The translations under genes and the position numbers were made by a program. The notes under the pieces are model-generated. The model worked only from the letters and a program-made list of their open reading frames with translations, ran no database searches and was not told where the DNA came from. 64,000 bases of DNA from Teichococcus aerophilus (GTDB taxonomy: Bacteria > Pseudomonadota > Alphaproteobacteria > Acetobacterales > Acetobacteraceae), in the NCBI RefSeq assembly GCF_014490485.1, contig NZ_JACTVA010000025.1, positions 1-64,000 on the forward strand. Direction: 5' to 3'. Numbering within the stretch: the stretch's first letter is position 1; every line of letters starts with the position of its first letter. Shown one piece after another: positions 4,441 through 52,334 of this stretch.

Positions 4441-4683
4441 GAAGGCCGGGAAAGAATTCCCCGGGCTCCTTCTTTTGCTTTTTCGAGTTTTCTGGCGTGG
4501 CTTTTGATGGTTCGGGTCTGAGATCCGGCTGGGTGCGCCGGAGGTCTATGACCTTCGGCGACTAGGGTTTCCGCCGCGTGGCCCCTATTTAAATTCATCG
4601 AGAAGCGTCCTCTCAGCCCTGAACCGCGACGCCAACTCGAAGAAAAAAAGAAGGGGGCCGGGGAATTTTTTCCCCGGCCTTCT
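4441..4683 (+). repeat. CTR intergenic repeat, copy 1 (terminator-ended, standard interior)
   Basis: It fills the convergent junction between the ABC ATPase and the GntR gene. The left end opens GAAGGCCGGGAAAGAATTCC, a hairpin with an AGAA loop (one G shorter than in the other copies), then a T-rich run to about 4489. The right end is the inverted counterpart (A-rich run, then hairpin ending GGCCTTC). The interior carries the central dyad at 4535-4560, here imperfect (CGCCGGAGGTC against GACCTTCGGCG). Confidence 0.85.
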
Positions 4684-4815
4684 CTCTTCGGATGCGCTCG
4701 AGCCGAGTACAGTCTCGCGTCAAGCCGGCGGCGCGGAAGGCCGACAACAAAGGGTAGCTGGCGGTTCAGCCTTTGTCGCCGTCCGCCATCATCCAGGCTG
4801 CGTCACCCAACGCCG

Positions 4816-4869
4816 AAGCCAAACGCGCAGAGAAAGATGGAGCCCTGGGGGAATCCTGCCCCCTGGCCT
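4816..4869 (-). repeat. Solo degenerate right end of the CTR repeat; probable terminator of the gntR gene
   Basis: GCCAAACGCGCAGAGAAAGA followed by a G5/C5 hairpin and GGCCT matches the right-hand end of the repeat family (compare copy 4, 24730-24781) with several substitutions. No matching left end or interior precedes it. Read on the minus strand it gives a hairpin then a CT-rich run, seven bases past the GntR stop codon. It looks like a relic or an independently retained terminator half. Confidence 0.6.
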
Positions 4870-4876
4870 GCCCCTT

Positions 4877-5548: not shown

Positions 5549-5680
5549 GGTCTGTCCCCCCTTCCTTAGCCAGGCAGCGGCCGGATGGCGAGGCGTAACA
5601 TCGCCGTTGTTCCAGATTCCATACACAGATTGATCCCCAGAATTTGGGGATAACTCGGGGGCAGGCGGCCGGGGGCGGCC

Positions 5681-5713
5681 GGCGGTCCGGGCGGGTGGAG
5701 CGCCCGGGCCGCC
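5681..5713 (-). terminator. Strong GC hairpin after the Mo-hydroxylase operon
   Basis: GGCGGTCCGGGCG (5681-5693) and CGCCCGGGCCGCC (5701-5713) form a 13-bp stem with one mismatch and a 7-base loop. It begins 14 bp past the stop codon of the large Mo subunit. There is no T-tract, so it may stabilise the 3' end or act with Rho rather than as a classic intrinsic terminator. Confidence 0.5.
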
Positions 5714-5727
5714 CGGCCTGGCAGGCT

Positions 5728-9553: not shown

Positions 9554-9594
9554 GACAGAGGCTCCCGATGGACAGATAATGGGGGGCGGGGCAC

Positions 9595-9615
9595 AAACGG
9601 AGGGTGCCTCCGTTT
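9595..9615. promoter_or_regulatory. TetR-type operator, perfect 9-bp inverted repeat
   Basis: AAACGGAGG (9595-9603) and CCTCCGTTT (9607-9615) form a perfect inverted repeat around GTG. It lies between the Mo-hydroxylase operon (first codon at 9553) and the TetR gene (start 9676). Length, symmetry and position fit an operator bound by the adjacent regulator, controlling itself and the oxidoreductase operon. Confidence 0.75.
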
Positions 9616-10287: not shown

Positions 10288-10295
10288 TCGGCAGG

Positions 10296-10537
10296 GAAGG
10301 CCGGGGAAGGAATTCCCCGGACCCCTTCTTTTCTTTTTCGAGTTCTGGGGCGTGGCTGTGGAACGGTTGTACAAGGATGACGGCTGGGTGCGCCGGAGGT
10401 CTTGGACCTCCGGCGACTGACGGCCCAGCCCGCGTAGCCCCATTAAAACATCACGAAGCGTCCGCTCTCAGTCTGAAGCGTGGACGCCAAACTCGCAGAA
10501 AAAAGAAGGGGTCTGGGGAATTCTTTCCCCAGCCTTG
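10296..10537 (+). repeat. CTR intergenic repeat, copy 2 (standard interior)
   Basis: It sits at the convergent junction between the TetR gene and the cytochrome gene. The left hairpin CCGGGGAAGGAATTCCCCGG is followed by CCCCTTCTTTTCTTTTT. The right end is the mirror image (AAAAAAGAAGGGG, then a CTGGGGAA/TTCCCCAG hairpin). The central dyad at 10391-10415 has perfect 11-bp arms, with outer GGCTGGG/CCCAGCC arms. Confidence 0.88.
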
Positions 10538-10577
10538 CTGCATCTCCAGGTAGAAGCGATAGAAAGAACCAAGTTCC

Positions 10578-15897: not shown

Positions 15898-16147
15898 GAA
15901 GGCCGGGGGAAGGAATTCCCCCGGGCCCCCTTCTTTTGTTTTTGCGAGTTTGGCGTATTGCCAGGGTGGTCGAATTATCGCGGTGCTCTGAAAGACATAC
16001 TGGGCACTTGTGACGTCAAACGACTGCCTATCTGGGGTCGGAAGATTGGGCTTTTTGGATCACTGACTTCCGCGCTGCATTCAGAGGAACCAACACAAAC
16101 TCGAAGAAAAGAAAGAAGGGGCCTGGGGAATTCCTTCCCCAGCCTTC
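15898..16147. repeat. CTR intergenic repeat, copy 3 (variant interior)
   Basis: The ends are typical (GAAGGCCGGGGGAAGGAATT...; right end GAAGGGGCCTGGGGAATTCC...), at the convergent junction of the thiolase and M20 genes. The 160-base interior is unrelated to the standard one: it lacks the CGCCGGAGGTC dyad and is less GC-rich. This shows that the ends are the conserved unit. Confidence 0.82.
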
Positions 16148-16171
16148 TGCTCCACGCTTGATAAACCCGGC

Positions 16172-24537: not shown

Positions 24538-24781
24538 GAAGGCCGGGGAACGAATTCCCCGGACCCCATCTTCTTTTTTCGAGTTTTCGGGCGTGGCCGT
24601 TGAAAGGTTGGGCTTGAGATGAGGCTGGGTGCGCCGGAGGTCTTGGACCTCCGGCGACTGAGGGTTCAGCCCGCGTGGCCCATTTTAAATATCATCAAGC
24701 AGCGCTGGCTCTCAGTCCTGAAGCGCTTCGCCAAACTTGCAGAAAAAAGAAGGGGTCTGGGGAATTCTTTCCCCAGCCTTC
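24538..24781 (+). repeat. CTR intergenic repeat, copy 4 (standard interior)
   Basis: Convergent junction between the HutC-type regulator and the CMD gene. The left hairpin CCGGGGAACGAATTCCCCGG starts at 24543 and is followed by CCCCATCTTCTTTTTTC. The central dyad at 24632-24656 has perfect 11-bp arms. The right end is GAAGGGGTCTGGGGAATTCT... ending AGCCTTC. Confidence 0.88.
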
Positions 24782-24821
24782 TCCCGTCTTCCATTCATGT
24801 CCACCCCAACAAAGAAAGCCC

Positions 24822-28573: not shown

Positions 28574-28609
28574 CGGGGAATTCCCCGAAGTTTCCCCGCA
28601 GATCTGCGG
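28574..28609. other. Two adjacent 14-bp perfect palindromes
   Basis: CGGGGAATTCCCCG (28574-28587) and CCGCAGATCTGCGG (28596-28609) lie eight bases apart. They fall between the LysR stop codon and the next binding-protein gene. An alternative fold pairs GCGGGGAA (28573-28580) with TTCCCCGC. The GGGGAATTCCCC core recalls the CTR hairpins, but no loop bases or T-tract are present. This could be an operator pair, a terminator or a relic. Confidence 0.5.
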
Positions 28610-30393: not shown

Positions 30394-30523
30394 GAAGGCT
30401 GGGGGAAGGAATTCCCCCAGGACCCCTTCTTTTTTCTGCGCGTTGGCGGTGCGCCTCGGCCGCCAGGACACCTGAAATTCAAAAAGAAAAGATGGGGTCC
30501 GGGGAATTCCTTCCCCGGCCTTG
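30394..30523. repeat. CTR intergenic repeat, copy 5 (short variant)
   Basis: The shortest copy (130 bp), at the convergent junction of the binding-protein and amidohydrolase genes. Left end GAAGGCTGGGGGAAGGAATT, then CCCCTTCTTTTTTC; right end AAAAGATGGGGTCCGGGGAA and a hairpin ending GGCCTTG. Only about 60 bases of unrelated interior remain. Both terminator ends are intact although the core is absent. Confidence 0.82.
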
Positions 30524-30534
30524 CTTCCCCTTGC

Positions 30535-32078: not shown

Positions 32079-32288
32079 GAAGGCCAGGGGAAAGAATTCC
32101 CCTGGAACCCCATCTTTTTTCTGATCATTTGGGTTCGGCCTTAAAGGCGGAGAATTCACTGCTAGCCTCTCTAAGAGAGTCGTGCGGCACGAACCCGGCC
32201 TAGGCTAACAAAGCCAGACGCCCCCTCAGCCACACCCAAAAAACTCCAGAAAAAAGATGGGGTCTGGGGAATTCCTTCCCCAGCCTTC
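32079..32288. repeat. CTR intergenic repeat, copy 6 (variant interior, tandem junction)
   Basis: The only copy between two genes on the same strand: downstream of the binding-protein gene (ends 32304) and upstream of the amidohydrolase gene. The ends are typical (GAAGGCCAGGGGAAAGAATT; right end AAAAAAGATGGGGTCTGGGG). The interior differs from the standard one but is itself dyadic: GGGTTCG (32131-32137) pairs with CGAACCC (32190-32196), and CTCTC/GAGAG (32167-32179) lies between. Confidence 0.82.
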
Positions 32289-32303
32289 CTTCCCCAATCT
32301 TCC

Positions 32304-39347: not shown

Positions 39348-40289
39348 TCAGGCCGGGGGCTGCGCGCCGACCTGGTCGACGATGCGGCGGTAGTGTTCCG
39401 GCCGGCGGTGCTGGGCGAAGTTGAACATCTTGTCCTTGCCCTGGCGCACGGCATCGAGGTCGGCATCCGCCACCACCACCTCGTCCTCCAGCGTCTTGGC
39501 TTGGCCGACGATGACGCCGTTCGGGTCGACGATGACGGAGCTGCCGATCAGGCCGGAGCCATCCTCGTTGCCGGCCTTGGCGACGCTGACCGCCCAGGTG
39601 GCGTTCATGTAGGCATTGGCCTGCACGGCGATGTTGGAGTGGAAGGTGCGGATTTCTTCGTTCTCGGTGGTGCCGCCATTCGGGTCGTAGGCCGCCGAGT
39701 TGTAGCCCATCACCATCAGCTCCACGTCCTGCAGGCCGTATTCGCGCCAGGCCTCGGGCCAGCGGCGGTCATTGCAGATCAGCATGCCCATGATGGGGCG
39801 GTGCCAGGATTCGGCGCCGCGGAAGGCGGGGAAACCGGTGTCGCCATACTCGAAGTAGCGCTTCTCCAGCTGCTGGAAGCGAGCGCCCTCGCGCGGCTCG
39901 ACGCTGCCCGGCAGGTGCACCTTGCGGTACTTGCCGAGGATGCTGCCGTCCGGACCCACGGTGATGGCGCTGTTGTAGTGCAGGCCTTCCGGCGTGCGTT
40001 CGGCATAGCCGACATAGAAGCCGATGCCGAGTTCACGGGCGCGGTCGAACAGCTCCTGCACCTGCGGGTTCGGCATGCTGGCTTCGTAGTAGGATTCCAG
40101 TTCCTCGCCGCTCAGCAGCCAGCGGGGGAAGAAGGTGGTGAAGGCCAGCTCGGGGAACACCACGAGCTGGGCGCCCTGGCTGGCGGCCTGTTCCAGCAGC
40201 GCGATCAGGCGGGCCAGCGTCACGTCCCGCGGCTCGGCCCGCTGGGTGGGGCCCATCTGGGCGGCGGCAAGGCGAAGGATACGGGGCAT
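39348..40289 (-). CDS. N-carbamoyl-D-amino-acid hydrolase-like nitrilase-superfamily enzyme
   Basis: A 313-residue cytoplasmic carbon-nitrogen hydrolase. The Glu-Lys-Cys triad is complete: E47 (VVFPELAF), K123 (KYRKVHLPG) and C172 (GMLICNDRRWPEAWR). The C-N-D-R-R-W-P-E context around Cys is characteristic of D-carbamoylases, which release the amino acid, CO2 and ammonia from N-carbamoyl amino acids in hydantoin/ureide breakdown. It is the first gene of an operon with an amino-acid importer and a NodB-fold hydrolase. The ATG at 40289 fits the family N-terminus (RILRLAAAQMGP). Confidence 0.88.
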   Translation of the reverse strand: MPRILRLAAAQMGPTQRAEPRDVTLARLIALLEQAASQGAQLVVFPELAFTTFFPRWLLSGEELESYYEASMPNPQVQELFDRARELGIGFYVGYAERTPEGLHYNSAITVGPDGSILGKYRKVHLPGSVEPREGARFQQLEKRYFEYGDTGFPAFRGAESWHRPIMGMLICNDRRWPEAWREYGLQDVELMVMGYNSAAYDPNGGTTENEEIRTFHSNIAVQANAYMNATWAVSVAKAGNEDGSGLIGSSVIVDPNGVIVGQAKTLEDEVVVADADLDAVRQGKDKMFNFAQHRRPEHYRRIVDQVGAQPPA

Positions 40290-40362
40290 GGCAGGCGTTC
40301 TCTTGCTTCTTGATGCGGCCGGGCACCGCCCGGCGCTGGCAACAATCGCATAATAAGAACGC

Positions 40363-40378
40363 AGTGCAATCATGCACT
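40363..40378. promoter_or_regulatory. Dyad between carbamoylase operon and pirin gene
   Basis: AGTGCA-ATCA-TGCACT is a perfect 6-bp inverted repeat. It lies in an AT-rich stretch about 75 bp upstream of the carbamoylase start and 165 bp upstream of the pirin gene. It is a candidate operator for a GntR- or MarR-like regulator not encoded nearby. Confidence 0.45.
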
Positions 40379-40542
40379 TGATATAAAATCGTCGCTTACC
40401 ATTCAGCCAGATTATAGTTCGACGTGCGGATGGCTGCCCATTGTGCAGCGCGGCAACCAACGCAGCGCCTAGCGGAAACCCTGGAAGCGCCCGGCCCCCA
40501 GGGCTTAATCTATCCGCCAGCACAGCAGCGCGGGAGATCGGC

Positions 40543-41487
40543 ATGAGCGTGGAACAGGACCCCGGCGCCTCCCTGGCGCTGCCAGCGGGCATCGATCACG
40601 TCATCATCCCCCGCGCCCATGATATCGGTGGCTTCGAGGTGCGGCGCGCCCTGCCGGCGCGTGAACGACAGATGGTCGGCCCATTCATCTTCTTTGATCA
40701 GATGGGTCCCGGCGAGTTCCTTTCCGGCCACGGGCTCGATGTCCGCCCGCATCCGCATATCGGGCTCTCCACCGTGACCTACCTGTTCGAGGGCGCCATC
40801 CAGCACCGGGACAGCCTGGGCTCCGACCAGCCGATCGTGCCGGGGGACGTCAACTGGATGACCGCCGGGCGCGGCATCGCGCATTCCGAGCGCACAGCCC
40901 AGGCACTGCGGCCGATTGGCGGCAAGCTCTCCGGCATCCAGTCCTGGGTCGCCCTGCCGAAGGCGGCGGAGGAAGATGCCCCGGCCTTCGTGCACCACGG
41001 TGCCGCCACCCTGCCGGTGTTGGAAGACGGCGGCGCCCGCGTGCGGTTGATCGCCGGCGAGGCCTTCGGTGCCCGGGCGCCCGTCGTCACGCATTCGCCC
41101 CTCTTCTACGCCGATGCCATCCTCGCCGCCGGAGCCGCCCTGCCGATTCCCGACGGGCATGACGAACGTGCCGCTTACGTGCTGGAAGGCGAGGTCAGCA
41201 TCGCCGGGGACCGCTTCACCGCCGGCCGCATGCTGGTCTTCCGCGCCGGGGACCACATGTCCCTGCTGGCCGGACCCCTGGGCGCCCGCCTGCTGCTGCT
41301 GGGCGGCGCCACCATGGACGGGCCGCGCCACATCTTCTGGAACTTCGTCTCCTCCTCGCGCGAACGGATCGAGCACGCCAAGGCCGACTGGAAAGCCGGG
41401 CGCTTCGACCGCGTGCCTGGCGACGACCAGGAATTCATCCCGCTGCCGGAAGAGCGCGTCCGCGTGCGGGCTGCGACGCGGGAGTAG
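40543..41487 (+). CDS. Pirin-family protein
   Basis: A 314-residue bicupin. The N-terminal pirin domain has the metal-binding set [24 protein letters not shown], with further His/Glu in GRGIAHSE, and the second cupin ends in the conserved [23 protein letters not shown] tail. Pirins act as quercetinases or as redox-sensitive metal proteins; the role here is unknown. It is a single gene divergent from the carbamoylase operon and followed after 43 bp by repeat copy 7. The ATG at 40543 is chosen over an upstream frame with no family similarity. Confidence 0.88.
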
Positions 41488-41530
41488 AGGTGCCTTGGAC
41501 GGCGCAGGGCTTGGGAGTTTTGGGTGTGGA

Positions 41531-41778
41531 GAAGGCCGGGGAAAGAATTCCCCGGACCCCTTCTTTTATTTCTGCGAGTTTGGCGTGGCGCTTCAGGACT
41601 GAGAGCGGACGCTGCTTGATGATTTTAATCATGGGCCACAGGGGCTGAACCGTCAGTCGCCGGAGGTCTACGACCTCCGGCACACCCAGCCTTCTCTCAG
41701 GCCCAACCTCTCAGCGGCCACACCCGGAAAAACTCGAAAAAAGAAGATGGGGTCCGGGGAATTCTTTCACCGGCCTTT
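41531..41778 (-). repeat. CTR intergenic repeat, copy 7 (standard interior, reversed)
   Basis: At the convergent junction of the pirin and beta-lactamase genes. The ends are as in other copies, but the interior is inverted relative to copies 1, 2, 4 and 8: the CAGGACTGAGAGCGGACGC block comes first and the core dyad (41659-41680) follows. The right hairpin has one substitution (TTTCACCGG). A further 204 bp without recognisable features separates it from the beta-lactamase stop codon. Confidence 0.85.
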
Positions 41779-41982
41779 CCCTTTCTCGACACTGCCCAGG
41801 CGCCCAACAAGGTTATCGTCCTGGATGACGAAGGCAGCCCTCGCTCAAGATGGCTCCTAAAGGCCATCGCGCGCCCTGTGCCAGTTCGTTCATCGGCACC
41901 CATAGGACGTGAGACGGCGGGGAGACGATGTCTGCCGTCGCTGCCAGTGGCGGCGCCTGGCCGGCAGATGCCGCCAAGCGCG

Positions 41983-42885
41983 TCACGGGGACCAGGCGGC
42001 GGCGACGGCGGCGCCCACATCGGCCAGGGCGGCGTCGCGGATGGCGCCGTCGGCGGCGCCTTCGGTCAGGTAGGCGGCGACCAGGATAGGGGCGGCGCCG
42101 CCGGGGGGCCAGAACAGGCCGATGTCGTTGCTGGTGCGGGATTCGTTATAGGTGCCGGTTTTCTCACCCGCCTGCCAACCGGGGGGGAGGCGGGCCTTCA
42201 GGCGCTTGTCGCCGGTCAGGTTGCCGCGCAGCCATCCCAGCAGTTGGGCCCGGCTGGCGGGGGCGAGGGTGTCGCCGAGCGCCAGCTTATGGAGCGTGGC
42301 GATGAGGGCAGCGGGGGTGCTGGTGTCGCGGTGATCGTCGCCGACGGATTCGTTCAGGGCGGGTTCGTTGCGGTCCAGGCGGGTGGTGGGATCACCGATC
42401 CGCCGCAGCCAGGCGGTCAGGCCTGCCGGGCCGTCCAGCACGTCCCGCAGCAGCAGGTTGGCGGCGCCATTGTCGCTGAGGACCATAGTGGCCTCGCACA
42501 GGGCGGCCAGCGTCATGCCGTTGCCGCCGATGTGCTTTTCCGTCGTCGGGGAGTAGGCGACGAGGTCCTGCCGCGTGTAGCGGATGCGCTGGTCCATGCG
42601 GACCTGCCCCGCATCGGCGCGGGCCAGGACGGCGGCGGCGGCCAACAGCTTGAAGGTGCTGCACAGCACGAAGCGCTCGTCCTGGCGGTGGCCGGCCTGC
42701 TGGCCGTTGCCGGTATCCAGCACCGCGACGCCGAGGCGGCCGCCGCGCGTGGCCTCGATGCGTGCGAAAGTGGCGGGCAGGGCGGCGAAGCCGCCGGCGG
42801 CGTGGGCCAGGCGTGGCGCGCCGAAGCCCATGGCCAGGGCGCTCAGGGCCGCCGTACCGCCCATCCAGGACCGTCTGCTGATCAT
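41983..42885 (-). CDS. bla: Class A beta-lactamase
   Basis: A 300-residue serine beta-lactamase that hydrolyses beta-lactams in the periplasm. All class A motifs are visible: S76-T-F-K79 (Ambler S70-x-x-K73), S137-D-N139 (S130-D-N), E174 in NEPALN (E166) and K242-T-G (K234-T-G). The residue before the active Ser is Cys (C75), but the position equivalent to Ambler 238 is not Cys, so the disulfide typical of class A carbapenemases is absent. The N-terminus MISRRSWMGG suggests Tat export. The adjacent divergent AmpR-type regulator indicates inducible expression. Spectrum cannot be inferred. Confidence 0.93.
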   Translation of the reverse strand: MISRRSWMGGTAALSALAMGFGAPRLAHAAGGFAALPATFARIEATRGGRLGVAVLDTGNGQQAGHRQDERFVLCSTFKLLAAAAVLARADAGQVRMDQRIRYTRQDLVAYSPTTEKHIGGNGMTLAALCEATMVLSDNGAANLLLRDVLDGPAGLTAWLRRIGDPTTRLDRNEPALNESVGDDHRDTSTPAALIATLHKLALGDTLAPASRAQLLGWLRGNLTGDKRLKARLPPGWQAGEKTGTYNESRTSNDIGLFWPPGGAAPILVAAYLTEGAADGAIRDAALADVGAAVAAAWSP

Positions 42886-42964
42886 GCTGTGTCTCCTTCT
42901 GTGGGCGCCGAGATGGCGCAGCCGGCGGCGTCCGGACAAACGATGATCCCTTGCCGGAGACCCA

Positions 42965-42973
42965 AGATTATCT
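42965..42973. promoter_or_regulatory. AT-rich AmpR-type control site in the bla-ampR gap
   Basis: The 101-bp divergent gap between bla and ampR contains AGAT-T-ATCT (42965-42973) inside AAGATTATCTAATG, its only AT-rich dyad. AmpR/LysR proteins bind such sites between their own gene and the beta-lactamase gene. Assignment rests on position and composition only. Confidence 0.4.
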
Positions 42974-42986
42974 AATGTCACCAGGC

Positions 42987-43865
42987 ATGAGCCTGAACCG
43001 CGTCCCCCTGAATGCCTTGAGAGCCTTTGAGGTCTCCGCGCGGCAGTTAAGCTTCACCCGGGCGGGGCTGGAGCTGCGCGTGACCCAGGCGGCGGTGAGC
43101 CAGCAGGTGAAGACCCTGGAGGAAATCTTGGGTGTGCCGCTGTTCCGGCGGCTGCCGCGCGGCCTGGCGCTGACCGAGGAGGGGGAGGCGTTGCTGCCGG
43201 TGCTGACCGACGCCTTCCGCCGCATCGCCGGCACGCTGGACCGGTTCGAGGGCGGGCGGGTGCGGGAGGTGCTGACGCTCGGCGCGGTCGGCACCTTCGT
43301 CACCGGCTGGCTGCTGCCGCGGCTGGCGGAGTTCCGTGCCGCGCAGCCTTTCGTCGATGTGCGGCTGATGACCAACAACAACCGCGTCGACCTGGCGGGG
43401 GAGGGGCTGGACTATGCCATCCGCTTTGGGGACGGCGCCTGGCATGGCACGGAGGCGTTGCGTCTGTTCTCCGCGCCGCTTTCGCCGCTCTGCGCGCCCG
43501 CGCTGGCGCGGCGGCTGCGGCAGCCGGCCGATCTGGCGCGGGAGACGCTGCTGCGCTCCTACCGCGTGGATGAATGGTCCCGCTGGTTCGCCGTGGTGGA
43601 CCTGCCACCGCGCACGACGCGCGGCTACGTGTTCGACTCGTCGTTGACCATGGCGGAGGCAGCTGTGCAAGGCACGGGCGTGGCTCTGCTGCCGGTGCGG
43701 ATGTTCGAGCATGACATCCGCCAGGGCCGGCTGGCACGCCCCTTCGGCGCGGAGGTGACGCTGGGCAGCTACTGGCTGACCCGGTTGAAATCGCGCGAGG
43801 AGACGGCAGCGATGTCGGCGTTCCGCGACTGGCTGCTGGCGCAGCCGGACACGCAGCCTGCATGA
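42987..43865 (+). CDS. ampR: AmpR-type LysR regulator of beta-lactamase
   Basis: A 292-residue LysR-type activator closely resembling AmpR of enterobacteria: PLNALRAFEVSARQLSFTRAG and QAAVSQQVKTLEEILGVPLF in the HTH, VGTFVTGWLLPRLAEF and NNNRVDLAGEGLDYAIRFG in the effector domain, VFDSSLTMAEAAVQGTGVAL and LGSYWLTRL near the end. AmpR senses muropeptides and switches on the divergent beta-lactamase gene. The ATG at 42987 gives the same spacing to the PLN-LRAFE motif as in known AmpR; an upstream ATG at 42975 abuts the putative control site. Confidence 0.9.
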   Translation: MSLNRVPLNALRAFEVSARQLSFTRAGLELRVTQAAVSQQVKTLEEILGVPLFRRLPRGLALTEEGEALLPVLTDAFRRIAGTLDRFEGGRVREVLTLGAVGTFVTGWLLPRLAEFRAAQPFVDVRLMTNNNRVDLAGEGLDYAIRFGDGAWHGTEALRLFSAPLSPLCAPALARRLRQPADLARETLLRSYRVDEWSRWFAVVDLPPRTTRGYVFDSSLTMAEAAVQGTGVALLPVRMFEHDIRQGRLARPFGAEVTLGSYWLTRLKSREETAAMSAFRDWLLAQPDTQPA

Positions 43866-43902
43866 ACCGCCGCAAGGCCGTGGATGCGAGGGGAATAGAA
43901 CG

Positions 43903-44100
43903 ATGAAGCCGCCATTCGAAGGTATGTTGATGGCGGGCTACCACCAGTTCTTCATCGCGGAGGCGCAGGTGGAGCCCGAGGCCGCGCTGCGGACGGATGC
44001 GGACCTGCTGGCCAGCGGTTCGGTGATCTCCGCCTTTATCGCGCGAAACATGCCGGGCTGTGCGAACAGATTACGCTGCAGCGTGGCATGGGGGGCGTGA
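43903..44100 (+). pseudogene. Short unidentified ORF, probably a 5' gene remnant
   Basis: A 65-codon ORF beginning MKPPFEGMLMAGYHQFFIAEAQ with a good GAGGGGAA ribosome site eleven bases upstream. The first 40 residues read like the N-terminus of a folded soluble protein (the AGYHQFF segment is reminiscent of ComJ-type proteins, a weak resemblance). The last 20 residues (CANRLRCSVAWGA) look random, and base composition drops in the same place. The simplest reading is a truncated gene whose 3' part was lost upstream of the MocR gene. It could instead be a genuine small protein. Confidence 0.45.
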
Positions 44101-44146
44101 CGGATATGCGGGGCGGCAAGCAACCTTGTGTGGCGTGGTTGCCGGC

Positions 44147-45556
44147 ATGAGGGGTGCCTCCAAGGCGGACCAGATCGTTGCCCGGCTGGCGGCCGCCGTG
44201 GAGGGTGGGCTGCTACGTCCGGGCCTCCGCGTCGCCTCTGTCCGCGCCGCCGCGCGGGAACAGGGCCTGTCCAAGAACACCGTGGCCGAGGCCTATGAGC
44301 GGCTGGTGGCTTCCGGCCATCTGGAGGCACGGCGCGGCGCCGGCTACTTCGTTGCCAATCAGCCCTGCCGCCCGCCGCCGCGGCGACAGGAGGTGGTGGA
44401 AGCGCTGAGCCTCGTCTCCCTGCTGCGTGAGCAGACCGAGGAACACTACGTGGTCCGCCCCGGCGAGGGCCGCCCGCCCCCCTCCTGGATGGAAGAGTCC
44501 GAGCTGGCCCGCTGCCTGACCCAGGCCAGCCGCGACCAGTACCGGGGCGAGGCGCATAGCTACGGCAGTTCCTGGGGCTATGAACCGCTGCGCGAGCGGA
44601 TCGCGCAGTCGCTGTCCGAACGCGCCATCCATTGCACGCCAGGCCACGTGCTGCTGACCCAGGGGGCCAACCATGCCCTGGACCTGGTCATTCGCAACAT
44701 GGTCGCGCCCGGGGACCGCGTGCTGGTCGATGACCCAGGCTACTACCCGCTCTTTGCCAAGCTGCGCCTGGCGCAGGCGGAGATCGTCGGCATCCGTCGC
44801 AACCCTGACGGGCCAGACATCGACGACTTGCGCGCCAAACTGGCGCAGCGCCCGGCGCGCGCCTTCTTCACCCAGTCCCTGGGGCATAATCCCACCGGGG
44901 GCACCCTCAGCCCAAGCGTTGCGGCGGCGGTGTTGCAACTGGCCGAGCAGCACGGATGCCAGCTGGTGGAGGACGACCCCTTCGCCGACCTGCTGCCCGC
45001 CGCCAGCCCCCGCCTGGCCGCGATCGGCGGGCTGGGGCGGGTGCTGTATGTCGGCACTTTCTCCAAGACCCTGTCGGCCTCGCTCCGCGTCGGCTTCGTG
45101 GCCGGGGCGGCGCCGGTGGTGGAGGCGCTGAACGACCTGAAGCTGCTGACCGTCGTCTCCACTTCTCAGTACGCGGAGCGGCTGGTAGCGCAGTTGATCG
45201 AGGCCGGGCACTACCGCCGCCACCTGCGCCGCCTGGCGCGCCGTGTCGAGGCCGCCACGGCACAGGCCACGCTGGATCTCGGCGCGCTGGGCCTCACCCT
45301 GTCCCGCCCCACCGGCGGCTTCTACCTATGGGCCAAGCTGCCCGCCGGGCTGGAGGAGGAACCTCTCTGCCGCAGCGCCGCCGCGCGCGGCATCTTCCTG
45401 GCACCCGGCGCCGTCTTCAGCCCCGACCGCGGCCAGGGCGTGCCCGCCCTCCGCATCAACGTTGCCCATGCGAGCGACCCTCGCTTCCTGGAATTCCTGG
45501 CGGATGCGATGGGCGTGCCGTTTCACTCTGCGGGCGGCGCAAGCACGGACGCATAA
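44147..45556 (+). CDS. MocR/GabR-type regulator (GntR HTH fused to PLP aminotransferase fold)
   Basis: A 469-residue chimeric regulator. Residues 1-75 are a GntR winged helix (VRAAAREQGLSKNTVAEAYERLVASGHLEARRG). Residues about 115-460 are a fold-type I aminotransferase domain with the PLP aldimine Lys in TFSKTLSASLRVG, LGHNPTGGTLS at the substrate loop and DDPGYYPLF upstream. MocR proteins sense PLP-linked amino compounds and usually control a neighbouring metabolic or transport gene. No such intact gene is adjacent; the gene upstream is a truncated ORF. The ATG at 44147 gives the usual N-terminus, and the longer 44060 reading is not family-like. Confidence 0.87.
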   Translation: MRGASKADQIVARLAAAVEGGLLRPGLRVASVRAAAREQGLSKNTVAEAYERLVASGHLEARRGAGYFVANQPCRPPPRRQEVVEALSLVSLLREQTEEHYVVRPGEGRPPPSWMEESELARCLTQASRDQYRGEAHSYGSSWGYEPLRERIAQSLSERAIHCTPGHVLLTQGANHALDLVIRNMVAPGDRVLVDDPGYYPLFAKLRLAQAEIVGIRRNPDGPDIDDLRAKLAQRPARAFFTQSLGHNPTGGTLSPSVAAAVLQLAEQHGCQLVEDDPFADLLPAASPRLAAIGGLGRVLYVGTFSKTLSASLRVGFVAGAAPVVEALNDLKLLTVVSTSQYAERLVAQLIEAGHYRRHLRRLARRVEAATAQATLDLGALGLTLSRPTGGFYLWAKLPAGLEEEPLCRSAAARGIFLAPGAVFSPDRGQGVPALRINVAHASDPRFLEFLADAMGVPFHSAGGASTDA

Positions 45557-45664
45557 GCCATTTAGGTGGTTCGCAAGTGGGTATGGCGAAGCAGGCTTGG
45601 GTGTGGAGGTCGATTTACCCTGATCTGTTGGGAAGAACTGAAAGATTTTGGTCCATAGTGGAAG

Positions 45665-45909
45665 GAAGGCCGGGGAAAGAATTCCCCGGGCCCCTTCTTT
45701 TCTTTTTTCGAGTTTTCCGGAGCGGCTGGTGAGGGTGCGGTCTTGAGAGACGGCTGGGCGCGCCGGAGGTCCTAGACCTCCGGTGACTGACGGCCCAGCC
45801 CGCGTGGCCCATTTTAAACATCATCAGAAGCGTTCGCACTCAGTCCTGAAGCGTGACGCCAAACGCGAAAAAAGAAGATGGGGTCCGGGGAATTCTTTCC
45901 CCGGCCTTC
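45665..45909 (+). repeat. CTR intergenic repeat, copy 8 (standard interior)
   Basis: Convergent junction of the MocR and HMG-CoA lyase genes. Left hairpin CCGGGGAAAGAATTCCCCGG, then CCCCTTCTTTTCTTTTTTC. The central dyad at 45761-45785 has arms CGCCGGAGGTC and GACCTCCGGTG with loop CTA, extended outward by GGCTGGG/CCCAGCC. Right end GAAGATGGGGTCCGGGGAAT, ending GGCCTTC. Confidence 0.88.
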
Positions 45910-45981
45910 CTTCACTTCGCTTCCCCTTTCGCTGCGGATGAACGAAAACCGAAATCGTGCGTCTACGGTCAGACGCCGGGC

Positions 45982-46908
45982 TTAAGCACCGAAGACGCCC
46001 CGGGCCTGTGCGAGGCGGGAGGCGGGCCGCCGGTTCAGGTGGCGGGAGATCAGGGCGGTGGCGGCCAGTAGCTGGTCCAGATCCACGCCGGTTTCGATGC
46101 CCATGCCGTGCAGCATGTAGACGAGGTCCTCGGTGGCGACGTTGCCGGAGGCGCCCTTGGCGTAGGGGCAGCCGCCAAGGCCGGCGACGGCACTGTCCAC
46201 GACCGAGACGCCGAGTTGCAGGCAGGCCAGGATATTGGCCAGGGCCTGGCCGTAGGTGTCGTGGAAGTGCAGGGCGAGCTGCCCGACCGGCACCCGGGCG
46301 GCGACGGTGGCGAGCATGTTCTGGGCTTGCAGTGGCGTACCGGTGCCGATGGTGTCGCCGAGCGAGATTTCGTAGCAGCCCATGGCGGAGAGGGCGGCCG
46401 CGACTGTGGCCACGACATCCGGCGCCACCTCGCCCTCATAGGGGCAGCCGAGGACGCAGGAGACGTAGCCACGCACACGCAGCCCTGCCGAGACGGCCTG
46501 GGCGACGACGGGGGCGAAGCGGTCCAGACTCTCGGCGATGGAGCAGTTGATGTTCTTGTGGGAGAAGCTCTCGGACGCGGCGCCGAAGACCGCGATCTCC
46601 CGTGCGCCGGCGGCCAGGGCGGCGTCCAACCCTTTCAGGTTGGGCACCAGCACGGGGTAGCGGATGCCGGCATCGGGCGTCAGCGCCGCCAGCACCGCGG
46701 CCGTGCCGTCCATCTGCGGCACCCAGCGGGGCGAGACGAAGCTGCCGGCCTCGATATCGCGCAGGCCGGACGCCGCCAGGGCTTGGATCAGCGCGATCCG
46801 CGTGGCCACGGGGACGGTGACGGCCTCGTTCTGCAGCCCGTCGCGCGGGCCGACCTCGACGATGCGGACGGAACGGGGCAGCGTCGTCCTGCTGGGTTCA
46901 GCCACCAC
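45982..46908 (-). CDS. mvaB: Hydroxymethylglutaryl-CoA lyase
   Basis: A 308-residue TIM-barrel lyase cleaving HMG-CoA to acetoacetate and acetyl-CoA. Motifs: [12 protein letters not shown] at the barrel entry, GCPYEGEV, metal-binding [12 protein letters not shown], and the HMG-CoA lyase signature with active-site Cys ([22 protein letters not shown] region). The GTG at 46908 is chosen because GGAG lies seven bases upstream inside mvaA; a second GTG follows immediately at 46905. It overlaps the reductase stop codon by eleven bases. With mvaA it makes a two-step mevalonate degradation route as in Pseudomonas mevalonii. Confidence 0.93.
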
Positions 46909-48175
46909 GCATCCGCTCCAGCTCCGCGATGGCGACATCCTGGCGCACCTGGCGGCGCTCCACCAGCAGCGCGGCCAGCTTCGCCACTTCGTCACCCACC
47001 GCGCCGGCGGCGATGGCGACGTTGTTGGCGTGCAGCGCCATGTGCCCCTTCTGGATGCCGGTCGTCGCCAGGGCCTTCATGGCACCAAAATTCTGCGCCA
47101 GGCCGACGGCGGCGATGATGCGTGCCAGTCCCGCCGCGCTGGTGACGCCGAGGATCTTCAGGCAGGCCCGCGCGGTCGGGTGGATCTTGGTGGCGCCGCC
47201 CACCAGCCCGACCGGCATTGGCAGTTCGATGGAGCCGGCGAGGCTGCCATCGGCGGTGACTTCCCAGTTGGTCAGGCTGCTGTAGCGGCCGTTGCGGGCG
47301 GCATAGGCGTGGGCGCCAGCCTCCACCGCGCGGGTGTCGTTGCCGGTGGCCAGCACGACGGCGGAGACGCCGTTCATGATGCCCTTGTTGTGCGTGGCGG
47401 CGCGATAGGGGTCGGCCTCGGCGAAGTGGTAGGCGGAGATCATGCCGTCCCGCACCGCCTCGCCGCCGATGGCCTCCACCGGCCAGATGGCCCGGGCGCG
47501 GGCCAGGCGGCGGTCGGCGAGGTTGGAGAGGATGCGCAGGAAAACCTTGCCGCCGGTCCAGGCCTCGATCTTCGGCGCCAGCGTCTCGGCCATGGTGTTG
47601 ACGGTGTTGGCGCCCATCGCATCCCGCGTGTCGATGATCAGGTGCGTGATGACCATGGCGCCGCCACGGGAGTTGACGATGCGCACTTCCAGGTCGCGGA
47701 AGCCGCCGCCAAGTTGCACCAGCAGCGGGTCGCAGCCATCGCAGATGGCGGCGATCTCCTCGCGGTGCTCCAGGATGCTGAGGCGGGCATTCTCCGGATC
47801 GGTCAGACCTACCAGCTGCACCTGCGCGATCATCAGCGTGCCGGAGACGGAGGTGATGAAGCCGCCGGAATCGTAGCACTGCCGGGCGGAGTTGCAGACG
47901 GCAGCGACGACGGAGGATTCCTCCGTGGCCATCGGCACCAGCACATCCTGGCCATCGACGCGCATGTTGGTGGCGACGCCGATGGGGATGGAGAGGGTGG
48001 CGACCACGTTCTCGATCATGTGGTCGGCCAGGTGCGTGTTGATATTGCCGGGCGCGGCGAGCTGCGCCCGCGTGGCGTCATCGAGGTCGGAGAACGCCGC
48101 CACGGCGTCCAGCCGCTCCGCGGTGCTCATGCGGTGGAAACCGGAGATACGGGACGTGAGGTTCTGGATGGACAT
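46898..48175 (-). CDS. mvaA: Class II (degradative) hydroxymethylglutaryl-CoA reductase
   Basis: A 425-residue class II HMG-CoA reductase. Diagnostic segments: [16 protein letters not shown], the catalytic Glu region [29 protein letters not shown] (Asp), the active Lys in [10 protein letters not shown] and the C-terminal catalytic His in GHMALHANN. In bacteria with mvaB downstream this enzyme runs from mevalonate to HMG-CoA with NAD(P)+. The ATG at 48175 is preferred, with another in-frame ATG two codons upstream (48181). It overlaps mvaB and follows a TctC-type binding-protein gene, together a likely mevalonate uptake and catabolism unit. Confidence 0.93.
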
Positions 48176-48229
48176 GAGCATTCCGTAAGGAGGCAGCGGG
48201 ACGGGAGAAGCGGACGCGGGTTGGTGCGG

Positions 48230-49213
48230 TTATTCGAGGCGGATATTGCCCTCGCGGATCACGTCCCCCCACTTGCGGGTATCGTCCCGCAGGGCGGCGC
48301 GCAGCATCGCGGCGTCGCCAGTGACCAACTCGACGCCCTGTTCCGCCATGCGGGTGCGGATGGTGGGATTGTCGGTGGCGGACCGCAGCGCGGTGGCGGC
48401 GCGGGCCAGAATGGCGGCCGGGGTCCCGGCGGGGGCGAACAGGCCCTGCCAGAAGAACACCTCGAAGCCTGGCAGCGTGTTGGAGACCGGCGGCAGGCTG
48501 GGATAGCCCTGGATCGGCGCGCTCGCCGTCACGGCCAAGCCGCGCGTGCCGCCGTCCGCCAGGGTGGTCGCGGCTTCCTGGATGGCCTGGAACACGACAT
48601 GGATGCGGCCCTGCCGCAGGTCCAGCGCCGCCGGCGCACCGCCGCGATAGGGCACGTGAACGATGTCGATGCCCGCCCGGGCGCGGAACATCTCCAGGCA
48701 CAGATGGCTGACCGAGCCGGTGCCCGGCGAGCCGAACAGCACCTTGCCCGGGTTGGCCTTGCAATAAGCGATCAGGCTGGCTGTGTCCGTGACGGGCAGG
48801 GACGGATGCACGTGCAGGATGAAGGGCGTGCGGAACACCATGCCGATCGCGTCCAGCTCCGCCGCCGGGTCCTTCGGCGTCAGTTGCGGCTGCAGCGTCT
48901 GGTTGATGGCCAGGGTGGTGGTGCCCATTACCAGCGTATAGCCATCCGGCCGCGCCCGGGCGGCGTAGGTGGCGGCGACCGAGGTGGCGGCGCCGGGGCG
49001 GTTGTCGATGACCACCGGCACGCCGAGATTGCGCGACATCGGCTCGGCCACGGCGCGGGACGCCAGGTCGGTCACGCCACCAGGCGGGTAGCCCTCCACC
49101 AGCGTAACGGGGCGGTTCGGCCAGGCATTCGGGTCCGTCTGTGCCAGGGTGGGACGTGCGAGCAGCAGGCCGGGCAGGGCAAGGCCGGCCCCGAGCAGGG
49201 TGCGACGATTCAT
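48230..49213 (-). CDS. TctC/Bug-family tripartite tricarboxylate transporter binding protein
   Basis: A 327-residue periplasmic protein: signal peptide MNRRTLLGAGLALPGLLLARPTLAQ, then the Bug-family opening WPNRPVTLVEGYPPGGVTDLASR, the ligand-contact segment VVIDNRPGAATSVAA and HVPYRGGAPAALDLRQG. Such proteins bind carboxylates with high affinity; the TctAB membrane partners are not in the window. It heads the mvaAB operon (54 bp upstream), so mevalonate or a related hydroxy acid is a plausible ligand, by inference from context. Confidence 0.9.
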   Translation of the reverse strand: MNRRTLLGAGLALPGLLLARPTLAQTDPNAWPNRPVTLVEGYPPGGVTDLASRAVAEPMSRNLGVPVVIDNRPGAATSVAATYAARARPDGYTLVMGTTTLAINQTLQPQLTPKDPAAELDAIGMVFRTPFILHVHPSLPVTDTASLIAYCKANPGKVLFGSPGTGSVSHLCLEMFRARAGIDIVHVPYRGGAPAALDLRQGRIHVVFQAIQEAATTLADGGTRGLAVTASAPIQGYPSLPPVSNTLPGFEVFFWQGLFAPAGTPAAILARAATALRSATDNPTIRTRMAEQGVELVTGDAAMLRAALRDDTRKWGDVIREGNIRLE

Positions 49214-49252
49214 GAGGGCGTTTCCTGTTTTGGTCTTCTTTATCCGCTCAGA

Positions 49253-49293
49253 TTGTCCCATCCGCAGGGCGGCCAACAGGGACAGTTTGTCCC
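49253..49293. promoter_or_regulatory. TTGTCCC repeats and GGGACA/TGTCCC dyad upstream of the mevalonate operon
   Basis: GGGACA-GTT-TGTCCC (49279-49293) is a perfect inverted repeat. A third half-site TTGTCCC lies at 49253-49259, 34 bp from the matching half. The site sits 40-80 bp upstream of the TctC start codon, a position suited to a dimeric or tetrameric regulator. Confidence 0.55.
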
Positions 49294-49755
49294 CAAATCA
49301 TTGGCACAGTTCCATGCGGCGGCGCAGCATGGTGGCCATGGAAGGGTCTGGTTCGGGTTGATCGGGCACTTGAAGATCAGGCAAGGCCGGGGAAAGAATT
49401 CCCCGGGGGCCCTCTTTTTTCTTCGAGTTTAGCGTGGTGCTGTCGGACTGAGTGCGGACGCTCTTCTATGATATCTCAATTGGGCCACGCGGGCTGAACC
49501 ATCAGTCGCCGGAGGTTTAGGACCTTAGGCGCGCCCAGTCGTCTCTCAGGCCAGACCTTTCAACGGCCACGCCGGCAAAACTCGAAAAAAGAAAAGAAGG
49601 GGCCCGGGGAATTCTTTCCCCGGCCTTGTCCCTTCCCCAACGCGTCAGCTTCCGCCAGCCCTGGTCCTCCTGCTTGATCCACAGGGATAAGGCGGCTTCA
49701 ATCAGCGGATTGGAGGCGCATTGCCTCTCCATGCCGCAGGAAGGTTCCGCCCCGC
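49294..49755. other. Divergent intergenic region containing repeat copy 9
   Basis: No gene is seen here. After the TTGTCCC operator block come 88 bases with no convincing motif, then repeat copy 9 (49382-49628), then 127 bases that must hold the promoter of the molybdoenzyme gene; no clear -35/-10 pair is visible. This is the only divergent junction in the window that holds a repeat copy. Confidence 0.5.
49382..49628 (-). repeat. CTR intergenic repeat, copy 9 (standard interior, reversed; divergent junction)
   Basis: The ends are typical, with the left end slightly changed (GCAAGGCC, T-tract CCCTCTTTTTTC). The interior is inverted as in copies 7 and 10; the core dyad at 49507-49531 is degenerate (GGAGGTTTAGGACCTTAGG). 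It lies between two gene starts, so its terminator ends would stop transcription of neither gene but could block read-through between them or from cryptic starts. Confidence 0.85.
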
Positions 49756-52059
49756 ATGAATGCCCCGACCGATCCGAAGGACCTGAAGCCACACGCCGCG
49801 CATTGGGGCGTATTCCGGGCCGGTTGGCGGGATGGCACCCTGGTGGTGGAGCCACATCCGGGCGACCCGGACCCGTCCCCCATCCTGCAGAACTTCCCGG
49901 AAGCCCTGCGGCACCGGGCGCGGATTGCCCAGCCCATGGTGCGGCGCGGCTGGCTGGAGAACGGCCCCGGCCCCAGCGACCGCCGCGGGCGGGACGAGCT
50001 GGTGCCGGTGTCGTGGGACCAGGCGCTGGACCTGCTGGCGGGTGAATTGGCACGGGTGCGGGACCAGCACGGGGTGCGGTCCATCTTCGGCGGGTCGTAT
50101 GGCTGGTCCTCCGCCGGGCGGTTCCACCATGCGCAGAGCCAGGTGCACCGGTTCCTGAACACCACGCTCGGCGGCTATGTCCGCTCCATCAACAGCTATA
50201 GCGCGGGGGCGTCCAACGTCATTATCCCGCATGTGCTGGGGCCGTTCGAGCCGGTGACGCGCCACAGCGTGACCTGGGACCAGGTGGTGGAGCATACCGA
50301 GCTGGTGCTGGCCTTCGGCGGCATGGCGGTGAAGAACAGCGCCGTTGGCGGCGGCGGCGTCAGCAAGCATATCGAGCGTGGCGCCATGGGTGCCGCCCAT
50401 GCACGGGGCTGCCGCTTCGTGCTGATCGCGCCGCTGCGGGACGACCTACCGGAGGAGGCGGGCGCGGAGTGGCTGCCGCTGACCCCTGGCACCGACACGG
50501 CGCTGATGCTGGGCATGGCGCATACCCTGGCTACCGAGAACCTGCATGACCGCGACTTCCTGGACCGTTTCTGCGTCGGCTGGCCGGAATTCGAAGCGTA
50601 TCTGCTGGGCCACAAGGACGGTACGCCGAAGGATGCCGCCTGGGCCGCCGCCATCAGCGGCGTGAAGGCGGAGAGCATCGCCCAGCTGGCGCGCGATGCC
50701 GCCGGCAAGCGCGTGCTGGTGACGATGGCGCATTCCCTGCAGCGCGCGGAGCATGGCGAGCAGCCGGTGTGGATGGGGGCCGTGCTGGCGGCCATGCTGG
50801 GGCAGATCGGCCTGCCGGGGGGCGGCTTCAACTATGCGCTGGGCTCTATCGCGCATTACGGCAAGCGCAAGGTCGCCGTGGCGGTCGCCGGATTGCCGCA
50901 GGGGCGCAACACGGTGCGGGACTTCATCCCGGTGGCGCGCATTTCCGACATGCTGCTGAACCCGGGCGCGCCCTTCGACTACGACGGGCAAAAGCTGACC
51001 TACCCGGACATCAAGCTGGTCTACTGGGCCGGCGGCAACCCGTTCCACCACCACCAGGACATCAACCGGCTGCGCGAGGCGTTCTATCGCGTCGATACGC
51101 TGGTGGTGCATGAGACGGCCTGGACCGCCACGGCGCGCCATGCAGACATCATCCTGCCCTGCACCATGACGCTGGAGCGCGAGGACATCGCCGCCGCCAC
51201 CACCGACCCGCTGATGGTGGCGATGCACCCGGTCTCCGCCCCCTATGGCGAGGCGCGCGACGATTACAGCATCTTCGCCGCGCTCGCCGCCCGCCTGGGC
51301 AAGGAGGACGCCTTCACCGAAGGCCGCGACGCACGTGGCTGGCTGAGGCACCTGTACGAGATCACCCGCGTCTCCATGGCGGAGCATGGTGCCCCCGCCC
51401 CGGATTTCGACACCTTCTGGGCGGCCGGCGAGCTGGAGATGCCGCTGGAGCAGGATACCGGCGGCATTCTCGGCGCCTTCCGCCGCGACCCGGACGCCCA
51501 CCCGCTGCCGACGCCGAGTGGCAAGGTAGAGATTTTCTCCGCCACCATCGACGCCTTTGGCTATGACGACTGCCCCGGCCACCCGACCTGGCTGGAGCCA
51601 GTGGACGTACCGAACGACGCTGCCCCACTCTGGATCGTTGCCAACCAGCCGGCGACGCGCCTGCACAGCCAGTTGGATTTCGGCGGCACCAGCGCCAACA
51701 GCAAGCGCCGGGGGCGGGAGGTAATGCGGATGCACCCCGCCGACGCCGCCGCACGCGGCATCGCCGAGGGCGACGTGGTGCGCCTGTTCAACGGACGCGG
51801 CGCCTGCCTGGCCGCCGCCGCGCTGAGCGACGCGGTGGCGCCAGGGGTGGTGCAATTGGCCACCGGCGCCTGGTACGACCCGGCGGACCCGGAGGAGGAC
51901 AAGCCGCTCTGCGTCCACGGCAACCCGAACGTGCTGACGCGGGACGCCGGGACGTCCCGCCTGGCCCAGGGCTGCACAGGCCAGTTGACCACCGTGCAGG
52001 TGGAGCTGTTCACCGGCAACCTGCCGCCGATCCGGGCGTGGGACCCGCCGGCGGTGTGA
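49756..52059 (+). CDS. bisC: Molybdopterin-dependent reductase of the BisC/TorA/DMSO-reductase family
   Basis: A 767-residue Mo-bis-MGD enzyme. GGSYGWSSAGRFHHAQSQ holds the Mo-ligating Ser (about S119) as in DMSO/TMAO reductase and BisC, and there is no N-terminal 4Fe-4S cysteine motif. HSVTWDQ, YWAGGNPFHHHQDINRL and the C-terminal HSQLDFG... and GDVVRLFNGRGACLAAA segments fit the family. No signal peptide is seen, so a cytoplasmic biotin-sulfoxide/methionine-sulfoxide reductase role (BisC) is preferred over periplasmic TMAO reductase. It is a single gene followed after 32 bp by repeat copy 10. Confidence 0.85.
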   Translation: MNAPTDPKDLKPHAAHWGVFRAGWRDGTLVVEPHPGDPDPSPILQNFPEALRHRARIAQPMVRRGWLENGPGPSDRRGRDELVPVSWDQALDLLAGELARVRDQHGVRSIFGGSYGWSSAGRFHHAQSQVHRFLNTTLGGYVRSINSYSAGASNVIIPHVLGPFEPVTRHSVTWDQVVEHTELVLAFGGMAVKNSAVGGGGVSKHIERGAMGAAHARGCRFVLIAPLRDDLPEEAGAEWLPLTPGTDTALMLGMAHTLATENLHDRDFLDRFCVGWPEFEAYLLGHKDGTPKDAAWAAAISGVKAESIAQLARDAAGKRVLVTMAHSLQRAEHGEQPVWMGAVLAAMLGQIGLPGGGFNYALGSIAHYGKRKVAVAVAGLPQGRNTVRDFIPVARISDMLLNPGAPFDYDGQKLTYPDIKLVYWAGGNPFHHHQDINRLREAFYRVDTLVVHETAWTATARHADIILPCTMTLEREDIAAATTDPLMVAMHPVSAPYGEARDDYSIFAALAARLGKEDAFTEGRDARGWLRHLYEITRVSMAEHGAPAPDFDTFWAAGELEMPLEQDTGGILGAFRRDPDAHPLPTPSGKVEIFSATIDAFGYDDCPGHPTWLEPVDVPNDAAPLWIVANQPATRLHSQLDFGGTSANSKRRGREVMRMHPADAAARGIAEGDVVRLFNGRGACLAAAALSDAVAPGVVQLATGAWYDPADPEEDKPLCVHGNPNVLTRDAGTSRLAQGCTGQLTTVQVELFTGNLPPIRAWDPPAV

Positions 52060-52091
52060 AGCCTGGGCGTGGCTGCTGGTGTCGGATGAAG

Positions 52092-52334
52092 GAAGGCCGG
52101 GGAAAGAATTCCCCGGACCCCTTCTTCTTTTTCAAGTTTGCCGTTGTGCCTCAGGACTGAGAGCAGACGCTGCTTGATGATTTTAATGGACTACGCGGGC
52201 TGAACCCTCAGTCGCCGGAGGTCCTAGACCTCCGGCGCACCGAGCCGGCTCTTAGGCTTGACCCATCAACAGCCACGCACGGAAAATTCGAAAAAAGAAA
52301 AGATGGGGCCCGGGGAATTCTTTCCCCGGCCTTC
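52092..52334 (-). repeat. CTR intergenic repeat, copy 10 (standard interior, reversed)
   Basis: Convergent junction of the BisC-like and binding-protein genes. It has the best-preserved core: CGCCGGAGGTC and GACCTCCGGCG around CTA at 52213-52237, a perfect dyad. Left hairpin CCGGGGAAAGAATTCCCCGG then CCCCTTCTTCTTTTTC; right end AAAAGATGGGGCCCGGGGAA..., ending GGCCTTC only eleven bases from the binding-protein stop codon. Confidence 0.88.

Follow-up and report, generated by a model that had tools for sequence, protein, structure and literature searches.

What is the repeat that recurs between the genes of Teichococcus aerophilus (Acetobacteraceae), and what might it do for the genes around it? 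The stretch that raised this question, positions 1 to 64,000 of contig NZ_JACTVA010000025.1 (assembly GCF_014490485.1), here called the window, contains ten similar intergenic segments with inverted ends. In this study, we found that each consists of two inward-facing hairpin arms around a variable centre and that the family lies mainly directly behind the stop codons of convergent genes, where it carries terminator-like signals. Rather than being an ordinary transposon, it seems to represent a new family within an established class of bacterial repeats. Our preferred reading, held with a probability of roughly 0.58, is a mosaic element resembling repetitive extragenic palindromic (REP) sequences and bacterial interspersed mosaic elements (BIMEs), with two inward-facing terminator or 3'-sealing hairpins, termination itself being a prediction.

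A repeat search recovered all ten copies listed in the original prediction, which was made from the letters of the window. The copies are 131 to 251 bp long, and each end is represented by ten copies in register. The inverted ends, predicted at 45 to 50 bp, measure about 50 bp and match between copies at up to 51 of 51 positions. The word GAATTCCCC occurs 21 times in the window compared with 0.35 expected from shuffles; 19 of these occurrences lie in the arms of the ten copies, and the remaining two form one palindrome. A central hairpin (CGCCGGAGGTC..GACCTCCGGCG) is common to seven of the ten copies, and the interiors of those at 15898, 30394, and 32079 differ. Eight copies are located in convergent gaps, one in a tandem gap, and one in a gap that is truly divergent, both flanking genes being named by Pfam. 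The copies and two example arms are as follows.

4441 to 4682, + strand: copy 1, with an arm at either end and a central hairpin at 4536-4560; convergent gap 4429/4877
10296 to 10538, + strand: copy 2, central hairpin at 10391-10415; convergent gap 10287/10578, 5 bp past a stop
15898 to 16148, no strand assigned: copy 3, typical arms with another interior; convergent gap 15876/16172
24538 to 24782, + strand: copy 4, central hairpin at 24632-24656; convergent gap 24524/24822
30394 to 30524, no strand assigned: copy 5, short (131 bp), central hairpin not found; convergent gap 30311/30535
32079 to 32289, no strand assigned: copy 6, another interior; tandem gap 31917/32304 between two - strand genes, 13 bp past the stop of the upstream gene
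41531 to 41779, - strand: copy 7, central hairpin at 41658-41682; convergent gap 41487/41983
45665 to 45910, + strand: copy 8, central hairpin at 45761-45785; convergent gap 45556/45982
49382 to 49629, - strand: copy 9, the exception, central hairpin at 49507-49531; divergent gap 49213/49756, flanked by genes for a TctC-family protein and a molybdopterin oxidoreductase
52092 to 52335, - strand: copy 10, central hairpin at 52213-52237; convergent gap 52059/52346
45660 to 45715, + strand: left arm as an example, with 10 pairs in the outer and 8 in the inner part of the stem, a 3-base bulge, and a T-rich tail, -26.7 kcal/mol, reading inward
45859 to 45912, - strand: example of a right arm, hairpin and T-rich tail like the left arm, reading inward

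Read from the outside inward, an arm starts with a hairpin and then enters a T-rich tract. The outer stem of this hairpin is built around GAAGG/CCTTC, its inner stem is CCGGGGAA/TTCCCCGG, and it includes a bulge of 3 bases. Each inverted end is a hairpin by itself, and a full copy can also form a single long hairpin (copy 24538, -141.2 kcal/mol, z = -8.6). For a census of such elements, 1.233 of the 5.66 Mb of the genome, window included, was read, keeping ends with E up to 1e-3 and, where ends overlapped, the stronger one. This part holds 304 ends in 171 elements, of which 133 are inverted pairs with a median length of 250 bp and the other 38 are single arms. The central module is present in 80 of the 133 pairs, and 84 of its 85 matches have an element no more than 300 bp away.

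The stem covaries within the arm. Among the 243 arms with a parsable stem (61 of the 304 fall outside this count), the variable pair next to the G-run and the C-run is C-G in 163, T-A in 46, and A-T in 17, i.e., Watson-Crick in 226, and its two positions share 0.776 bits of mutual information compared with 0.013 after shuffling. G-run and C-run are equally long in 222 of these arms. Between the left and right arms of an element, no association of the stem base was detected (0.007 versus 0.038; 88 elements, with 45 of the 133 pairs outside the comparison), and the G-run lengths are weakly associated (0.116 versus 0.039). One of nine profile columns compared between the two sides gave a strong signal (column 52, beyond the T tract; 0.48 versus 0.066, 13 of 93 identical), which we take to reflect the differing interiors of the two sides. 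Using an alignment tool on the best 150 of 190 arm matches from 667 kb of the part read, with the alignment itself fitted to the model and the other 40 matches set aside, 98.2% pairing and a covariation of 0.088 versus 0.046 were obtained (0 of 500 shuffles), with lower values in slid controls. In the relative G006 (genomes and contigs are designated here by our own numbers), the commonest variable pair is T-A, found in 35 of 46 arms, with C-G in 10 and one mismatch. Since the stem covaries within an arm without left-right association, the conserved unit is the local arm hairpin; the pair differs between species, and the pairing is kept, the stem changes not being independent events because the copies share ancestry. 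The initial description as a repeat family with inverted ends was therefore correct regarding the ends and wrong regarding the unit.

The position of the elements relative to genes is strongly biased, a tie to gene 3' ends that the original prediction had missed. As already described for the ten copies, genes are not invaded: the midpoint of an element fell in a called gene in 0 of 171 cases. With 167 elements placed (the other four were not flanked by two called genes), convergent gaps hold 92 copies compared with 28.2 expected from the leftover intergenic length (P = 5e-29), tandem gaps hold 67 compared with 97.2, and divergent gaps hold 8 compared with 41.6. Expressed as occupied gaps, this corresponds to 85/155 convergent, 65/701 tandem, and 8/147 divergent (convergent versus divergent, Fisher P = 3e-22), and the same trend is seen in G006 (19/54, 12/207, and 4/55, respectively). 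Copies follow stop codons closely, at a median distance of 22.5 bp in convergent gaps (136 ends); in the 49 tandem gaps with a single pair, the medians are 26 bp to the upstream stop and 130 bp to the next start, and 45 of 51 tandem pairs are closer to the former. After subtraction of the copy, occupied convergent gaps are not longer than empty ones (80 bp versus 119 bp, P = 0.03), which counts against random landing in spacer. Occupancy of convergent gaps is uneven, with 8/9 in the window, 17/20 in contig C97, and 2/27 in the stretches read of contig C1. The latter contig, poor in elements, may be another replicon or a core region.

We then asked what the arms offer to an incoming transcript. 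At least five T within the eight bases after the stem were found in 146 of 304 arms in the inward direction and in 0 of 304 in the outward direction. With a bulge-tolerant finder for hairpins followed by a T tract, such signals were obtained at 195 of the 235 copy-bearing gene ends (141/170 convergent, 54/65 tandem), at 46 of 247 gene ends without a copy (19/104 convergent, 27/143 tandem; convergent gaps of at least 60 bp and tandem gaps of at least 150 bp), and at 16 of 200 intragenic positions, although this finder was written after a plain terminator scan and finds arms by design, which weakens the case for terminators.

Several further results weigh against this reading. The plain scan of window positions 40000-53500 (13.5 kb) returned five sites compared with 6.5 in shuffles, none of them at an arm and two of them inside the interiors of copies, and the 146 arms that reach five T in eight are fewer than half of the 304. 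Of 14 lone arms in tandem gaps, 4 have the direction of the gene and 10 the opposite one (two of the 14 are near-symmetric minimal palindromes), and the arm that faces the upstream gene is preserved no better than its partner (25 of 51 tandem pairs, P = 0.45; hairpin energy, P = 0.88). In unparsed profile columns, the variable pair is C-G in 186 and T-A in 47 of 300 arms (0.446 versus 0.019), the next stem pair covaries little (C-G in 238 and C-A in 39 of 299), and the outer stem is weaker, one of its pairs being A-T in 170, A-A in 69, and G-A in 26 arms. Eight of the 167 placed copies, one of them in the window, lie between divergent genes, and all placements depend on gene calls by our own script (1017 genes in the 1.233 Mb). 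Genomes can also manage with few such signals: they were found at 1 of 16 convergent ends in the copy-free genome G008 and at 1 of 30 in a 160-kb copy-free stretch of G014, and terminator-like signals are therefore not required. In some relatives, arms of another sequence, which form hairpins such as GGGGTGACAGTGTCACCCC, have no clear T tract by eye. Finally, REPs generally lie at 3' ends according to an excerpt of PMC3733652, so position alone is no proof of function. We hold the reading at the stated probability because the plain scan, the direction of single arms, and the retention of the facing arm go against it, and we set it slightly lower than we otherwise would because the outer stem is weak and the shuffles match the plain-scan sites.

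As proposed, the element would comprise two inward-facing REP-like arms around a variable centre, often with a third hairpin. Each arm, when transcribed inward, would give an RNA hairpin followed by a T-rich tract and, located right after a stop codon and mainly between convergent genes, would supply the incoming transcript with a 3' end like that of an intrinsic terminator, so that one element could close two genes. Judged from the sequence, transcripts would then end at the elements. In a close alternative, the hairpin would seal or stabilise the 3' end after Rho-dependent termination.

The family is abundant and concentrated in one genus. A pattern of the arm core (up to two mismatches) gave 403 matches on one strand of the genome and 401 on the other, 804 in total, some of which may count on both strands as the core is nearly palindromic; the reversed control gave 0. 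Because 242 of the 804 matches fall within the part read, with its 171 elements, we estimate about 570 elements for the whole genome. A count in the hundreds within one clade had been proposed as support for a new family, and the results largely agree with this: within the genus, the end model has matches in 16 of 17 genomes, with 17 to at least 99 ends per genome and none in G008, and, outside it, in 5 of 41 relatives with 1 to 12 matches each. Among 200 sampled genomes of the family, 13 match (9 of 102 genera), three in the own genus and ten outside, under strict filters that may lose weak matches; at least 28 matches outside the genus were seen solely in two genomes of genus g52. Rfam contributed no family at or above the gathering threshold for the window (best subthreshold E = 0.14, one copy), again as anticipated. 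An origin from plasmids or phages was considered and rejected, as one plasmid record (Pseudoroseomonas cervicalis) gave a 42-base match, phages gave none, and viral contigs gave none by exact pattern.

Arms and centres are also found in other combinations. In G013, G002, G001, and G015, the same central module, with 81 to 92% identity, is flanked by arms of other sequence at 12 loci, which were picked by their match to the centre and one of which is cut by a contig end; G013 has window-type arms as well (L172, L177, and L178). Conversely, window copies combine the usual arms with other centres, so that the mosaic is seen from both sides. Six single arms and four short pairs (114 to 138 bp) were found in 120 kb of G003. 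Minimal single palindromes, AAGGCCGGGGAA..TTCCCCGGCCTT, occur on contig C75 at 37323, 60799, and 77828 and on contig C46 at 48424 and resemble a pair whose interior was lost between repeated CCGGGGAA words. Short tandem repeats adjoin single arms on contig C61 near 11651 (GAAGACT, many times) and on C97 near 60189 (GGGAA, several times).

High copy number and symmetric ends are also what would be expected of a non-autonomous miniature inverted-repeat transposable element (MITE) or a REP doublet forming a hairpin (REPIN) without host function, whose ends are recognised by a transposase from elsewhere and whose 3'-end bias reflects the loss of copies that hit promoters or genes. The missing bias toward the gene-facing arm and the divergent copies suit such an element, and so does the turnover of copies: of 17 spaces between flanks conserved with G006, five hold a copy here and none does in G006, so copies are gained or lost. 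Two of these five sites align cleanly, and three align too poorly to place a boundary; at the C49 site (60% identity to G006), the copy lies, by eye, in an overlap of stop and start codons. On the other side, no transposase was found, in line with the original prediction and with copies too short to encode one, and a search for the Y1 domain of REP-associated tyrosine transposases (RAYTs; PF01797) yielded 0 matches in this genome and one short match in 17 genomes of the genus (G005; 22.6 bits, 36 of 121 positions), its control being positive in 5 of 14 named genomes. A RAYT-driven REPIN was accordingly dropped as a candidate. No facing single arms 600 to 6000 bp apart, as expected for cargo or a parent transposase, were present in the 1.233 Mb. 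Target-site duplications, already described as not apparent, left no sign in either test: at least four shared bases in the 8-bp flanks were seen in 0 of 62 pairs here and in 1 of 15 pairs in G006 compared with 0.6 expected. These 62 pairs are those with strict anchors, 71 of the 133 lying outside this first test, and old duplications could have decayed; an apparent excess of 6-base matches in their 30-bp flanks (13 of 62 versus 5.6) was dropped since the other 71 pairs gave 12 versus 13.9. The stem bases of left and right arms are unassociated, and there is no near-identical pair, the best mutual identity among the 133 pairs being 90.8% and the median 85% for the 88 pairs that had a full-length partner (45 had none). 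We regard a MITE or REPIN without function as unlikely, though a serious contender. The copies may have been dispersed in trans or spread by gene conversion, the latter of which would fit both the unlinked arms and the species-specific pair. A further-reaching version of the preferred reading is a self-spreading, genome-wide mosaic terminator set whose arms and centres assort independently and which is homogenised within each species (C-G here, T-A in G006) without a resident RAYT, by gene conversion or an unidentified enzyme; it would be present at over half of the convergent junctions and provide most of the recognisable intrinsic terminators of a genome with 70% GC. This version is speculative, and we consider it doubtful.

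Two other explanations were weighed. E. coli REPs are described in the same excerpt as gyrase targets (PMC3733652), and a DNA-level element, e.g., one bound by gyrase or a nucleoid protein at the meeting of supercoils between convergent genes, would fit the convergent placement and the folding of an entire copy into one long hairpin. The T tract, however, is present on the inward strand only, and the stem bases of the left and right arms do not stay matched, which makes this improbable. Paired DNA uptake signals serving as terminators, as in Neisseria and Haemophilus, are likewise most frequent as hairpins between convergent genes (PMC1852404, in the part available). Against them, the arm word is not scattered singly in the window, given its 19 occurrences in arms and two in one palindrome, and the repeated unit measures about 50 bp and carries a tail, unlike a word of 9 to 11 bases; we consider this explanation very improbable.

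Comparison with described systems places the family, read as a REP/BIME-like element with terminator-like arms, in familiar company. Excerpts of PMC3733652 report REPs at gene 3' ends, mostly between convergent or co-directional genes, so the kind of repeat is not new; the expected novelty thus holds as regards Rfam and does not hold as regards kind. Like the GTAG and CGTC super-families described there, our elements are palindromic units, often inverted dimers, of high copy number, intergenic, and near 3' ends. Unlike them, they have a T-rich tail after the stem, a length of about 250 bp with a central hairpin, and no copy inside a called gene; the tags of those super-families are no rule here, 76 of 304 arms having either GTAG (up to 19 nt away on the outer side or 24 nt on the inner side) or a GGAG at the foot, and 11 having CGTC. 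CGTC repeats are given as missing from Acetobacteraceae in the excerpts of PMC3733652. For Lichenicola cladoniae, which belongs to the Acetobacteraceae, the available part of a 2025 survey gives a count of 1,369 REPs, so the bacterial family is already known to include REP-rich members; the survey also distinguishes REPs from terminators by T-rich tails (PMC12306157). The inverted pairs of REP-like hairpins (133 of 171 elements), foldable as one long hairpin, recall the REPIN/RAYT system, but the genome is without a RAYT domain and the two arms do not keep the same stem base. By the description in part of PMC2817692, BIMEs are similar in being mosaics of repeated motifs in alternating orientation. 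Bidirectional intrinsic terminators would share the hairpin and T tract for two convergent genes, and compensatory stem changes have been reported for Bacillus cereus terminators (PMC5381666, in excerpt); here, in contrast, the signal belongs to a family of dispersed repeats whose two arms are separate and face inward and whose bulged stem was not flagged by the plain scan. Pairs of uptake sequences are used as terminators in Neisseria and Haemophilus (PMC1852404, same part), where a repeated sequence likewise provides terminator hairpins across the genome; in the window here, single words are not scattered. Among the matches listed in our literature searches, there was neither such a repeat in Roseomonas or Acetobacteraceae nor a terminator-bearing repeat family.

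One gene end was followed across the genus. The gene at 49756-52059 encodes a molybdopterin oxidoreductase (Pfam), and the closest named relatives of the protein are from Acetobacteraceae bacterium AT-5844, Roseomonas sp., and Pseudoroseomonas. An element occurs soon past its stop in 4 of 15 genomes of the genus (this one, G007, G012, and G003), by eye with three different neighbours; in G004, the gene stands beside the same neighbour as in G012 and G003 without an element. At the same gene end in G005 (L033), the gap is taken up by another kind of inverted element, which is AT-rich and has a GC hairpin (GGCGTCCCGCC..GGCGGGACGCC) at its centre, and other repeats may therefore play the same part at gene ends.

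Some additional observations concern other repeats and sites. A second, unrelated, and variable repeat with GGAGCAGATCCCG or its complement was seen in convergent gaps of three genomes of the genus (joined stretches; G003 at 16144 and 44827, G012 at 13133 and 42940, and G008 at 76924). In the window, a solitary GGGGAATTCCCC palindrome at 28575-28586 is not part of the repeat family. At one of the poorly aligned sites (G006 contig C153 near 5300), what stands in G006 in place of a copy is a simple hairpin resembling an arm (GGGGGAAGCAATTCCCCC and a T run), perhaps an ancestral or reduced form. G014 and G009 were tried as a close pair for empty sites and abandoned, with 0 and 4 elements in their stretches and 19% N in that of G009.

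If the preferred reading is true, one dispersed family provides most of the terminator-like signals at the gene ends examined, 195 of 241 of which lie at ends with a copy, and transcript ends would come from an element that spreads instead of having evolved separately at each gene. The genus, with copies in 16 of 17 genomes, would then allow gain, loss, and homogenisation to be traced. REP-like repeats would gain a testable role, in a genome whose high-copy REP-like dimers occur without a RAYT domain.

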